Of a DNA stretch of 64,000 nucleotides, positions 22,714-27,867 are shown piece by piece. A program made the translations under genes and the position numbers. The DNA lies in the NCBI RefSeq assembly GCF_017569205.1, contig NZ_CP071870.1, positions 2,294,001 to 2,358,000 on the forward strand, written 5' to 3'. Below the pieces are notes generated by a model, which was given only the letters and a program-made list of their open reading frames with translations, searched no databases and was not told the DNA's origin. How positions within the stretch are numbered: position 1 is the stretch's first letter; each line of letters starts with the position of its first letter. The DNA is from Propioniciclava sp. MC1595. Its GTDB lineage: Bacteria; Actinomycetota; Actinomycetes; Propionibacteriales; Propionibacteriaceae.

Positions 22714-22838
22714 TTCGACATGACCGTCCGAGTCGGACTCGGCTCGCCCGACGAACGGGCCACCCCCTCCGGGTGATCCCGGAGCACCGGGGCGGCGCAA
22801 CCATGGGGCCAACATCGCTGTCGGAAAGGACCCCTCCC

Positions 22839-23276
22839 ATGCCCCTGGCACCCGTGGAGTTCGCCTTGTTCGCGTTCGATGACACCAGGATCACCGGTGA
22901 CATCGTCCCGGCGCTCACCGCTCTGGTGGAGAACGAACTCGTGCACATCATCGACCTCGTGTTCGTCCGCAAGGAGGCCGACGGCCAGGTCACCGCGTTC
23001 GAACTCGACGACCTTCCGGCGGACGCCGCCGCGGCGTTCGCCGACCTCGACCACGACATCGAAGGTTTGGTCAGCACCGAGGACCTCGACCACGAGGCCG
23101 ACCTCCTCGAACCCGGGACCTCGGCGATCATCGTCGTGTGGGAGAACCTGTGGGCGCAACGCTTCACGGACGCCGTGCGCGCGGCCGGCGGCGTCCTCGT
23201 CGACAATCAGCGCATCCCGGCCGAGGTTGTCGAGGCCGCACTGGCCGACGAGCTCGCCGACCGGAACCTCACCTGA
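22839..23276 (+). CDS. DUF6325-family protein
   Basis: This 145-residue acidic soluble protein has the DUF6325 hallmarks: an opening that places PVEFALFAFD at the start, LVENELVHIIDLVFVRKE in the middle, and SAIIVVWENLWAQRF near residue 95. Function is unknown. Family members are typically found beside SHOCT proteins in actinobacteria, as here (41 bases upstream of the SHOCT gene). ATG 22839 follows GGAAAGGA. Confidence 0.8.
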   Translation: MPLAPVEFALFAFDDTRITGDIVPALTALVENELVHIIDLVFVRKEADGQVTAFELDDLPADAAAAFADLDHDIEGLVSTEDLDHEADLLEPGTSAIIVVWENLWAQRFTDAVRAAGGVLVDNQRIPAEVVEAALADELADRNLT

Positions 23277-23316: not shown

Positions 23317-23610
23317 GTGATCCGTCCACGTCGTGGAGGCCCCGGCCTCATCGGGACCGCCGCCCGCACAGCCGTCATCGCCGGCACGGCGACCCGCGTG
23401 TCGGGCAATGTGGCCGCCAGTCAACAGGCCAAGGCCCAGCAGCGGGTGCCGGTCCAGCAACCTCCCCAGCCGACCGTCGTGGTGGCGGCGCCCGCCCCCC
23501 CGGCCGAGGACACCATCGCTCAACTCGAACGCCTCGCGGCCCTGCACCAGCAGGGGGCTCTCACCGAAGCGGAGTTCACCGCCGCCAAGGCACGACTGCT
23601 CGGCTTCTGA
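23317..23610 (+). CDS. SHOCT-domain protein
   Basis: The 97-residue protein has a basic, alanine-rich N-terminal half with a proline/glutamine linker, and a C-terminal SHOCT domain (AQLERLAALHQQGALTEAEF, then AKARLLGF), a short oligomerisation or anchoring motif. GTG 23317 follows GAGGAG. It is co-directional with the DUF6325 gene and convergent with the LapA-like gene, two bases apart. Confidence 0.85.
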   Translation: MIRPRRGGPGLIGTAARTAVIAGTATRVSGNVAASQQAKAQQRVPVQQPPQPTVVVAAPAPPAEDTIAQLERLAALHQQGALTEAEFTAAKARLLGF

Positions 23611-24016: not shown

Positions 24017-24499
24017 ATGTCAGAGCTCATCATCATCGGTTACGACGACCACGCAGTGGCGCAGCAGGCGCACGACCGCGTCGTCAAGCTGCAGCGCGAC
24101 CACATCGTCAACCTCGCCGGCCTCGCTGTCGTCCGGGTCGACGACGACGGCAAGAAGCACGTCGACACCCCGGCCAAGGGCATCGTGGGTGCGACCGCGG
24201 CGTCCGGCGCCCTCTGGGGCATGCTCATCGGGCTGCTGTTCCTGGTCCCCGGCGTCGGCCTCCTCGTCGGCGGCCTGTGGGGCGCGCTGGTCGGACGCCT
24301 CGGCAAGTCGGGCATCAACGCGGGCTTCCGGGCCCGGGTGGACGGCCTGCTGGAGCCGGGCAAGGCGGCCGTGGTCGTGCTGGCCTCGAAGCTGACCGAA
24401 GACAAGTTCGCCGCCGGCATGTCGGAGTTCGGCGGCACCGTTCTGCAGACCTCGCTGTCCGACGAGGACGAGAAGGCTCTGGCCGAAGAGCTCGCCTGA
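24017..24499 (+). CDS. DUF1269-type membrane-associated protein
   Basis: The 160-residue protein has a ferredoxin-like N-terminal part (ELIIIGYDDHAVAQQAHDRV), a glycine-rich hydrophobic hairpin around residues 58-92 (LWGMLIGLLFLVPGVGLLVG), and a C-terminal acidic region. This is the DUF1269 layout. Function is unknown; such genes recur in stress islands. ATG 24017 follows GAGAGGAAGG. The stop is four bases before the glutaminase start. Confidence 0.75.
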   Translation: MSELIIIGYDDHAVAQQAHDRVVKLQRDHIVNLAGLAVVRVDDDGKKHVDTPAKGIVGATAASGALWGMLIGLLFLVPGVGLLVGGLWGALVGRLGKSGINAGFRARVDGLLEPGKAAVVVLASKLTEDKFAAGMSEFGGTVLQTSLSDEDEKALAEELA

Positions 24500-24503
24500 C
24501 CCC

Positions 24504-25481
24504 ATGCCGTCCTCTGGTTTCGTCTCGACCGGGCACCTGCCCGCCGCCCCCGATGTGGGGGCGGCGGTGCAGGAGGCTTTCGCGCGGTTCAGCGACGCTC
24601 GCGACGGCGAACCCTCCACCGTCTACCCGGCCCTCGAGCGTGTTGATCCCGACGCCTTCGGCGTGAGCCTGATCGACGTGCACGGCACGGCGTGGGAGGC
24701 CGGGGACGTGACCACCCCGTTCACGATCATGAGCGTCGCCAAACCCTTCGTGTTCGCGCTCGCCGCCCGCGCCCTCGGGGCGGATCGGCTCGACGAACTC
24801 GTCGGCGTCGACGCCACCGGCCTCCCCTTCAATTCGCTCGAAGCGGTCGAGGCCGGCCCCGATGGCCGCACCAACCCGATGGTGAACGCCGGCGCGATCG
24901 CGACGACGGCGCTGGTTCCCGGCGCCACCACCGACGAGCGCTGGGCCGCCATTCGCGACGGGCTGTCGGCGTTCGCGGGGCGCCCGCTGACCGTGGACGA
25001 CGAGGTCTACGCCTCGGCGTCCGCCACCAACGACCGCAACCGCGCCATCGCCTGGCTGCTGAACAGCCGTGGGCGGTTGGCCGGGGAGCCCGACGACGCG
25101 CTCGACCTGTACACCCGGCAGAGCGCGCTGTCGGTGACCGCGCACGACCTCGCCGTCATGGGGGCGACCCTCGCCGACGGTGGGGTGAACCCCCTCACCG
25201 GCGAACGCGTCATGCCGGCCGAGCTGTGCCACCACGTCCTGGCGGTGATGCTGGTCGCGGGCCTGTACGAGACCTCGGGCGCGTGGTTGTACCGGGTCGG
25301 CCTCCCCGCCAAGAGCGGCATCGGCGGTGGGATCGTCACCGTCTCCCCCGGCAAGGGCGGCTTGGGCACGTACGCGCCGCGGCTGGACGCCCAGGGCAAC
25401 AGCGTCCGCGGGCAGAAGGCTGCGCGGTTCCTGTCGTTCCGGTTGGGTCTCGATCTGCTCGCGTCCCGTCCGGCCCCGTGA
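24504..25481 (+). CDS. glsA: Glutaminase A
   Basis: The enzyme hydrolyses glutamine to glutamate and ammonia and belongs to the serine-dependent beta-lactamase-like glutaminase family. The catalytic SxxK is in IMSVAKPFVF near residue 76, followed by GRTNPMVNAGAIA near 122, a conserved substrate-binding stretch. The later AKSGIGGGI matches the family's conserved KSGVGGGI motif. At 325 residues it is slightly longer than the usual 310. Ammonia release can support acid tolerance, which fits its stress-gene neighbours. The next gene starts five bases after the stop. Confidence 0.93.
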   Translation: MPSSGFVSTGHLPAAPDVGAAVQEAFARFSDARDGEPSTVYPALERVDPDAFGVSLIDVHGTAWEAGDVTTPFTIMSVAKPFVFALAARALGADRLDELVGVDATGLPFNSLEAVEAGPDGRTNPMVNAGAIATTALVPGATTDERWAAIRDGLSAFAGRPLTVDDEVYASASATNDRNRAIAWLLNSRGRLAGEPDDALDLYTRQSALSVTAHDLAVMGATLADGGVNPLTGERVMPAELCHHVLAVMLVAGLYETSGAWLYRVGLPAKSGIGGGIVTVSPGKGGLGTYAPRLDAQGNSVRGQKAARFLSFRLGLDLLASRPAP

Positions 25482-25485
25482 CCCC

Positions 25486-27867
25486 GTGGCCGAATCAGCG
25501 ACCGGCCTGACCGAGGCCCAGGCCCAGGCCCGGCTGGAGGCCGGCCAGGAGAACACCACCAACCTCAAGCCGTTGCGCACCCTCCAGCAGGCTCGTCGCG
25601 AGAGCATCTTCACGGTGTTCAACCTGAACATGGTCGGCCTGGCAGTGATCCTGCTGCTCCTCTCCGAGTGGATCGGGGCCGGCGTGACGTTGCTGCTGCT
25701 CGGGTTCTCCACGACGATCCGCAACGTCCACGAGTCCCTCGCCGCCAAGCGGCTCGACGCCGTGCGCCAGGCCGGCCGGACCAGGTCGACGGTGATCCGG
25801 GACGGGCGTCCCCGCGCCATCGACAGCGACCGCATCGTGCCCGGAGACCTGATCGTGATCTACCCCGGCGACCAGTTCCAGGTCGATGGAATCGTCACCG
25901 GGGCCGGCGCCATGCTGGTCGACACGGCCCAGGTCACCGGCCAGCGCGGCTGGGAGCGCGTCCAGGCCGGGGACGAGGTGCTGGCCGGCAGCGTCTGCCT
26001 CTCGGGGCGCGGGCGCTACATCGCCCAGCGCGTCGGCGCCGACCGCCTGATCCAGGCTCAACTCAGCCAGCGCACGGCTCTGGCGTCCCGCCCCACCCCG
26101 CTGGAGCGGCTGGTCGCGCGCATCCTCAGCGGCCTGCTCGTCGTTGTGTCGGTGTACGCACTGATCCTGCTGGCGAAGTACTTCCGCCTCGACGTGGGCG
26201 AGCCTGGGGACGCGTTCGTGGACGCTGCCCCGGTCATCTTCTCCCTGCTGCCCACCGGCCTGTACTTGATGATCGTGGTGGCCTACGCCACCGGAACGGC
26301 AGACCTGGCCCGGCTCGGTGCCGTGGTCCACAGCGCCCGCTCGGTGGAACTGCTGGCCGAATCGACGGTGATCTGCTTCACCGAGGTGGACCTGCTCTCG
26401 GGCACCGACCTGAGGGTCGAGCCCCTCCCCCCGGCTGAACCGGAGCGGCACGACGGTGCGGCCGACGATCCGGACGCCTGGCCGAGCATCGCGGAACTGA
26501 GGCGAACCCTTGGCGACATCGCCCTCAGCGCCACGGAGCGTGGCCCGCTGGTCGACCTGTACGCCCGCTCCTGCGAAGGTGAGGAGCGCGCCATCCTCGT
26601 CCAGGCGTCCCACCTCGCCACACTGGGCTGGTTCGCCGTGGCCTTCGACGACCCCGACGACCCGTTCCTGTACGTGCTGGCCGAGCCCACCCTGCTCGGA
26701 CGATCGGGGGCGTCCGACGAGGCGCTGGTCCTGGCCCGCGGCCCGATCGACACCACGCTGGTGGACGCACACGGCCACCCCCGCCTCCCCGAAGGGCTCG
26801 TCCCCCTGTGCGTGATCGAACCCCGACGCCACCTCCACCCCGACGCGATGGGTGTGGTCCGCGCCTTCCAGGCCTCCGGCGTCCACCTCAAGGTTTTCGC
26901 CAGGGACGCACCCGTCGAGGTGCTCGCGGCGCTGCGCGCGGCAGGACTGTCCGAGGAGGACGAGCGTGCCCTGCTGCCCAACGGTGGCCTGTCGGGCGCC
27001 GAACTCGAGGCGCTGCCACGCGACCAGTGGGCGACAGCGGTGCGCGAGTACCGCCTGTTCGGGGGCCTGACACCGGCACAGATGGGCGACGTGGTCGGAG
27101 AGCTCCGCGACGGCGGCGAGCGGGTGACGGTCGTCGGCGACGGGCTCACCGACCTGCCCGCGATGCAGCAGGCACAGCTCTCGGTGGCACCGCCGGCGAG
27201 CGCGCAGGCCGCGCTCGGCGTGGCCGACATCGTCCTGACCGACAGTTCTCCGGGGCTGCTGCTGGTCGTGCTGCACCGCGGCCAGTCGATCGTGCGCGGC
27301 CTGCTGGACGTGATGAAGCTCAACCTGTCACTGGTCGTCTGCACCGCCCTGCTCATCGGCATGGTCCGCCTGTTCGGGGTGGGCTTCCCGTATGTGGCGG
27401 GGCAGGGCTCGCTGATCTCGATCCTGCCGATCACCGTCCCGTCACTCCTGCTGCCGCTGTGGGCGCGGCCGGCCCCGGTGTCGAGCCGGAGTTACCTGAG
27501 CATCCTGGCCGGGTTCGTCGTGCCGGCCGGCGTCCTGCTGAGCGTGGCCGCGTTCGGGGTCTACCTGGCCCTGGTGTCCCGGACCGATGATGTCCGCGTG
27601 GCCCAGTTCGGCGTCACGTACACCCTGCTGTACGCCGGGCTGACCCTGTCGGTGCTGATCCAGCCACGCCTCCGCACCGCCTTGTTGGCGATCTCGTTGG
27701 CGCTCCTCGGTTCCCTGGCACCGGTGATCCCCCTTGCGCGGTGGCAGTTCCGCCTCGACCTGCTCCCCGAGCCGACCGACTACCTCATCGTCCTGCTCGC
27801 GGTGGCCGCCTGGACCGTGGCAGTCCACCTCGTCCGGCGCGCCGTCCGTCACTCCGAGGTGGCGTGA
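25486..27867 (+). CDS. P-type ATPase homologue lacking the catalytic residues (CtpE-like pseudoenzyme)
   Basis: The 793-residue frame is intact and aligns along its length with CtpE-type P-type ATPases, including the membrane helices. The key motifs are changed. Where DKTGTLT should lie the sequence is FTEVDLLSG, so the phosphorylated Asp, Lys and Gly are gone. TGE is TGQ, the PEGL of helix 4 is PTGL, TGDN is ARDA, and the hinge GDGVND is GDGLTD. Loss of so many sites in a long open frame suggests a non-transporting, perhaps regulatory or scaffold protein, not random decay. GTG 25486 is the first start after glsA and is likely coupled to it. Confidence 0.8.
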   Translation: MAESATGLTEAQAQARLEAGQENTTNLKPLRTLQQARRESIFTVFNLNMVGLAVILLLLSEWIGAGVTLLLLGFSTTIRNVHESLAAKRLDAVRQAGRTRSTVIRDGRPRAIDSDRIVPGDLIVIYPGDQFQVDGIVTGAGAMLVDTAQVTGQRGWERVQAGDEVLAGSVCLSGRGRYIAQRVGADRLIQAQLSQRTALASRPTPLERLVARILSGLLVVVSVYALILLAKYFRLDVGEPGDAFVDAAPVIFSLLPTGLYLMIVVAYATGTADLARLGAVVHSARSVELLAESTVICFTEVDLLSGTDLRVEPLPPAEPERHDGAADDPDAWPSIAELRRTLGDIALSATERGPLVDLYARSCEGEERAILVQASHLATLGWFAVAFDDPDDPFLYVLAEPTLLGRSGASDEALVLARGPIDTTLVDAHGHPRLPEGLVPLCVIEPRRHLHPDAMGVVRAFQASGVHLKVFARDAPVEVLAALRAAGLSEEDERALLPNGGLSGAELEALPRDQWATAVREYRLFGGLTPAQMGDVVGELRDGGERVTVVGDGLTDLPAMQQAQLSVAPPASAQAALGVADIVLTDSSPGLLLVVLHRGQSIVRGLLDVMKLNLSLVVCTALLIGMVRLFGVGFPYVAGQGSLISILPITVPSLLLPLWARPAPVSSRSYLSILAGFVVPAGVLLSVAAFGVYLALVSRTDDVRVAQFGVTYTLLYAGLTLSVLIQPRLRTALLAISLALLGSLAPVIPLARWQFRLDLLPEPTDYLIVLLAVAAWTVAVHLVRRAVRHSEVA

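Follow-up and report, generated by a model that had tools for sequence, protein, structure and literature searches.

Within a 64,000-nucleotide stretch of the Propioniciclava sp. MC1595 genome (hereafter, the window), we identified a full-length P-type ATPase homologue belonging to a clade of ten proteins that share the same catalytic losses, remain under purifying selection and are frequently encoded beside a glutaminase gene. P-type ATPases are defined by their phosphorylated Asp, which is replaced in each of the ten. That these proteins make up a conserved, apparently catalytically dead clade is, taken by itself, very probable; on balance, we also favour the fuller proposal that this pseudo-P-type ATPase clade has been kept to regulate or scaffold a glutamine/glutamate module as its non-pumping membrane partner. 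The gene and its upstream neighbours in the window are:

22773..23276, + strand: DUF6325 protein
23317..23610, + strand: SHOCT-domain protein
24017..24499, + strand: DUF1269 protein, 4 bases before glsA
24504..25481, + strand: glutaminase A, glsA (PF04960, 4.9e-100; NF009020, above cut-off)
25486..27867, + strand: pseudo-pump, an apparently catalytically dead P-type ATPase homologue (793 aa)

An ORF check of the window showed that the pseudo-pump frame has a GTG start, 793 codons and one stop. Pfam searches with the encoded protein returned the actuator-domain model PF00122 (E1-E2_ATPase) at 1.6e-30, together with a weak match below the cut-off to the HAD hydrolase model, and the protein scored 86.3 bits against the NCBIfam subfamily ‘HAD-IC family P-type ATPase’, for which the cut-off is 62.3. 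Automatic annotation would thus probably call the protein a pump, a misleading name. An AlphaFold model (mean pLDDT 72, pTM 0.62) has the topology of a P-type ATPase, combining ten helices in the membrane with A, P and N domains. Structure comparison matched it over nearly its full length (residues 2-793), with Z of about 24-28 and an rmsd of 6-10 for some 600-740 residues, to SPCA1a, MgtA, LMCA1, SERCA and flippases. The P-type ATPase fold is therefore predicted to be retained, at a model confidence that is moderate because only six sequences were available to build it. The bacterial Ca2+-ATPase LMCA1 (PDB 6zhf, 9evc) was the best-scoring PDB sequence match (1e-51) and also ranked near the top in the structural comparison (Z 24-27), but differs in retaining DKTGT and the PE of TM4. 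An initial sequence-only reading of the window had described a full-length homologue with 793 open codons and preserved membrane helices, and the ORF, the PF00122 match and the ten-helix model all bear this out.

Related proteins were gathered by searching 198 genomes of the family and by scanning genome contigs; the contig scan gave no match with a single protein as query and recovered five clade members with an alignment. The ten proteins derive from nine genomes, comprising eight Propionibacteriaceae (G000, the genome of the window, with two copies; G005, of the same genus; G021, Granulicoccus phenolivorans; G068; G105; G106; G109; and G111) and one member of the Ruaniaceae, Ruaniaceae bacterium KH17. 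Identity to the window copy is 72% for the second copy in G000, 68% for the G005 homologue and 54% for that of G. phenolivorans, and the tree places the duplication behind the two G000 copies before the split from G005. The clade is rare, since samples of 392 genomes from the order, 395 from the class and 396 from the phylum, as well as 200 from the family Ruaniaceae, yielded no additional member. Spread by plasmids was rejected, the best plasmid matches reaching about 31% identity or less and two of them (H1 and H6) having DKTGTLT intact, as was spread by viruses, a viral scan giving no match. The other P-type ATPases of G000 share at most 37% identity with the window protein over short parts and less than 30% over longer ones. 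As no close PxGL relative turned up among them, we also rejected the idea that the pseudo-pump regulates a close active paralogue in its own genome.

For a comparison of motifs, the ten clade members were aligned with 35 relatives having intact catalytic motifs. The corresponding sites in the window protein are:

25936..25944, + strand: actuator motif TGE, reading TGQ (residues 151-153)
26251..26262, + strand: TM4 motif PEGL, reading PTGL (residues 256-259)
26377..26403, + strand: phosphorylation loop DKTGTLT, reading FTEVDLLSG (residues 298-306)
26899..26910, + strand: (T/S)GD(N/D), reading ARDA (residues 472-475; FARDA, 471-475)
27064..27084, + strand: P-domain FGRxxPxxK, with Arg replaced by Gly527 and Lys by Met533, both lost in all ten members
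27136..27153, + strand: GDGVND, reading GDGLTD (residues 551-556), with Asn lost and Asp 552 and Asp 556 kept

The window loop aligns to the 35 intact relatives without gaps, such that T299, E300, V301 and D302 occupy the positions of D, K, T and G, respectively. Where the relatives have CxDKTGTLT, all ten clade members have C(F/V)T(D/E)(V/L/A)(G/D)xLxG(T/A); throughout the clade, T299 stands in place of the phosphorylated Asp of working pumps, the Lys of DKTG is gone, and residue 300 is acidic (D/E), being Glu in half of the members. The window copy carries the most altered loop of the clade, and it alone has lost Gly302. Also missing from ten of ten are the N-domain Lys (Gly381 in the window protein) and the P-domain Lys corresponding to HAD motif III, while (T/S)GD, or HAD motif II, is lost as such. 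The Glu of the dephosphorylation motif TGE is retained in two members and absent from TGQ of the window protein. At the GDGxND site, Asp 556 is present in every member and Asp 552 in nine, the exception being G109, which reads GGGTHD. Judged by the known reaction mechanism of P-type ATPases, the window protein would be unable to form an aspartyl-phosphate, and for this reason an E1/E2 pumping cycle would be impossible. Further, 39 positions conserved in the active relatives stay conserved in the pseudo-clade, and another 45 are invariant in the pseudo-clade without being so in the active relatives, which indicates that new constraints have arisen. In the membrane, TM4 reads PTGL and the middle of TM4 to TM6 lacks the conserved acidic ion site of P2/P3 cation ATPases; because no charged column occurs midway along TM4, TM5 or TM6, the protein appears to lack any cation site of a known kind.

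The motifs quoted in the sequence-only reading (TGQ, PTGL, FTEVDLLSG, ARDA and GDGLTD) all occur in the protein, but its assertion that every catalytic motif is altered needs qualification: this is the case for DKTGT, TGE and TGD, whereas GDGxND is half altered, with both Asp kept, and PTGL was inherited from intact relatives. It had also overlooked the losses at residues 527, 533 and 381. Its concern that a sequence error might conceal a displaced, intact DKTG was rejected, as none exists in the window frame, no frameshift is present and the same kind of loop recurs in nine other sequences.

Phylogenetic analysis placed the ten pseudo-pumps, which are homologues of the sort that the sequence-only reading proposed to look for, in one clade (support 100/100), which grouped with PxGL ATPases having an intact DKTGT loop (100/98) in a tree that included CtpE-like and Ca2+-ATPase-like enzymes. 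These PxGL ATPases (e.g. L046, L047, L051, L076, L077 and L099) are of similar length and likewise lack the TM4 glutamate, but their DKTGTLT is intact, actinobacterial members also have TGE, SGDD and GDGVND (L076 with SGE for TGE), and glsA adjoins them in none of five neighbourhoods checked (L071-L075). L099, from plasmid pA of the cyanobacterium Kovacikia minuta, combines VPSGLYLM at TM4 with an intact DKTGTLT and falls with the sister clade; the record shows a broken frame for it. CtpE-like HAD-IC P-type ATPases of the same family share 28-31% identity with the pseudo-pump and differ in retaining all catalytic motifs and the TM4 glutamate. Because the catalytically intact sisters already have PYGL or PSGL at TM4 (VPYGL/VPSGL), loss of PEGL appears older than loss of catalysis and no part of it. 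In the simplest reading, the TM4 glutamate would have been lost first with catalysis kept, giving an ancestral pump whose TM4 motif was neutral (PxGL) and whose DKTGT loop still worked. Catalysis would have been lost later, along the long stem of the pseudo-clade, through the disappearance of the phosphorylated Asp and the DKTG Lys together with the Lys and Arg of the P domain, (T/S)GD and the Lys of the N domain; the A, P and N domains survived, as did the membrane part with its ten helices. A separate lineage of the PYGL group in the same family, comprising L048 (G137) and L049 (G143), has partly lost DKTG (CTD-TGALT and CTDTAGALT, respectively), has an altered TGE and is under purifying selection (dN/dS 0.26). 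We also noted in G005 a P-type ATPase-like region (C1:3183399-3185610) that gave two separate matches and contains an in-frame TGA; it may be a gene in decay.

Examination of the gene neighbourhoods revealed glsA within 5 kb of the pseudo-pump in seven of the ten loci. In the window, gaps of 4 bases flank glsA on both sides, separating it from the DUF1269 gene and from the pseudo-pump start codon. The order DUF1269-glsA-pseudo-pump is found in both G000 loci, G005 and G111, and DUF1269 precedes the pseudo-pump without an intervening glsA in G021, so that DUF1269, by itself or paired with glsA, immediately precedes the pseudo-pump in half of the loci; in KH17, G105 and G106, glsA lies upstream on the opposite strand. 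A gene for an AbgT transporter is nearby in five loci, about 2 kb downstream at the second G000 copy and in G005, and also in G111, G105 and KH17, the last with an M17 aminopeptidase gene as well. A CitMHS-type carrier is encoded near the pseudo-pump in KH17 and at the second G000 copy, where a META-domain lipoprotein gene follows the pseudo-pump; similar genes occur in several other loci. The three loci without a close glsA are those of G021 (glsA on another contig), G068 (glsA and AbgT together elsewhere) and G109, in whose genome no glsA was found. Across the family, seven of the eight pseudo-pump genomes possess glsA, compared with 56 of 189 others (Fisher p 0.0016, relatedness ignored). 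Linkage had been suggested for glsA, DUF1269 and SHOCT genes: for the first two it extends beyond the genus, whereas for SHOCT, and likewise DUF6325, it was seen within the genus only. As a whole, the neighbourhoods point to glutamine/glutamate handling with release of ammonia. GABA-producing acid resistance was considered and rejected, as G000 gave no PF00282 match for a glutamate decarboxylase and G005 has no decarboxylase either. Two irregular neighbours were also observed. The glsA beside the G106 pseudo-pump is split over two frames (L069, 7975-8629), representing either a sequencing error or a recent glutaminase loss, while the pseudo-pump frame is open; and the second G000 cassette has just a 21-residue DUF6325 match (L066, 7953-8015), compared with a full gene in the window cassette.

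Analysis of coding changes established that the pseudo-pump clade is under purifying selection, to a degree comparable with its active relatives and the adjacent glutaminase. The unsaturated pair G105/G106 differs by 74 synonymous and 26 non-synonymous changes (dN/dS 0.12), and ratios within the genus are 0.25, 0.32 and 0.35, all far below 1, compared with 0.20-0.23 for glsA of the same genomes and 0.21-0.43 for active P-type ATPases at similar divergence, where the maximum of 0.43 comes from comparing an active enzyme with L048, itself partly altered. These are Nei-Gojobori estimates for GC-rich genes; they probably understate dS and hence overstate the ratios. A decaying pseudogene that is open by chance might account for the lost catalytic motifs and for the continuing drift of the loop (G302 to D in the window copy), but this explanation is largely refuted and we consider it very improbable. 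Apart from the dN/dS values, all ten frames are intact, whereas only 0.3% of neutral simulations at the divergence of the two G000 copies kept the frame open, in accord with the argument of the sequence-only reading that random decay would normally bring stops or frameshifts first; moreover, two copies have persisted in one genome since a duplication that predates the split from G005. Conservation, the ten intact frames and the new invariant positions together argue that the pseudo-pump is functional.

What that function might be is less certain. Non-canonical catalysis or nucleotide binding, for example through D/E300 and the two Asp of GDGxxD, would draw on the persistence of these residues in all or nearly all members; it is nonetheless improbable, given that Glu at residue 300 in half of the clade is unlike a phospho-acceptor Asp, that the P-domain Lys with its Arg, (T/S)GD and the N-domain Lys have all gone, and that G109 dispenses with Asp 552. 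Somewhat less improbable, though still unlikely, is that the membrane part now serves the glutaminase as a passive channel or carrier (e.g. for glutamine, glutamate or ammonia), with the head domains as relics or gates. Glutaminase genes elsewhere often lie beside an amino-acid transporter gene (GadC; PMC6250119), TM3-TM4 is the region of lowest dN/dS (0.16-0.20 in the genus), and a membrane core without conserved charges is not built for cations. Against this, purifying selection also acts on the soluble domains (0.27-0.43 in the genus; 0.10-0.15 in G105/G106), which a pure channel could do without, and glsA is already paired with an AbgT carrier in five loci. Given these conserved soluble domains and the presence of AbgT in half of the loci, we prefer a regulator or scaffold over a repurposed carrier with moderate confidence.

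Under the preferred regulator or scaffold role, which we infer from the gene neighbours, glutamine or glutamyl substrates would come from the AbgT carrier and M17 aminopeptidase, and glutamate and ammonia would be set free by GlsA; through its retained head domains, the pseudo-pump would regulate these proteins or act as their scaffold at the membrane. The three loci lacking a nearby glsA, and the split glsA of G106, weigh against this role. A more specific version, in which the pseudo-P-type ATPase regulates or scaffolds a membrane glutaminase/transport complex as a subunit that works without phosphorylation, and controls nitrogen or acid metabolism, is possible but tentative. The sequence-only reading had proposed an undescribed pseudo-pump class linked to glutaminase; a clade-wide conserved, apparently dead pump linked to glsA was found, while the words ‘regulatory or structural’ remain interpretation. 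A related known system, glutaminase-dependent acid resistance (AR2_Q), which relies on YbaS/GlsA with GadC (PMC6250119), resembles the present system in pairing glutaminase A with a membrane partner and in releasing ammonia. It differs in that no glutamate decarboxylase was found in the window's genome, and in that the membrane neighbours here are the pseudo-pump, AbgT and a CitMHS-type carrier.

In the literature searched, from which subscription papers were mostly absent, we found no report of a bacterial pseudo-P-type ATPase clade. A degenerate P4-ATPase domain is known from Plasmodium guanylate cyclase beta (PMC6592433), but this is a eukaryotic cyclase fusion of the P4 lineage and not a stand-alone bacterial protein. 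For P4 ATPases, scaffolding roles that do not depend on flipping have also been discussed (PMC10654040). In the clade described here, no member has retained the phosphorylated Asp, while the remainder of the protein is selected about as strongly as in active pumps, which suggests a use of the P-type ATPase fold apart from pumping. Granulicoccus phenolivorans DSM 17626 carries a pseudo-pump, and would offer a compact, cultivable system in which to study such non-pumping use.
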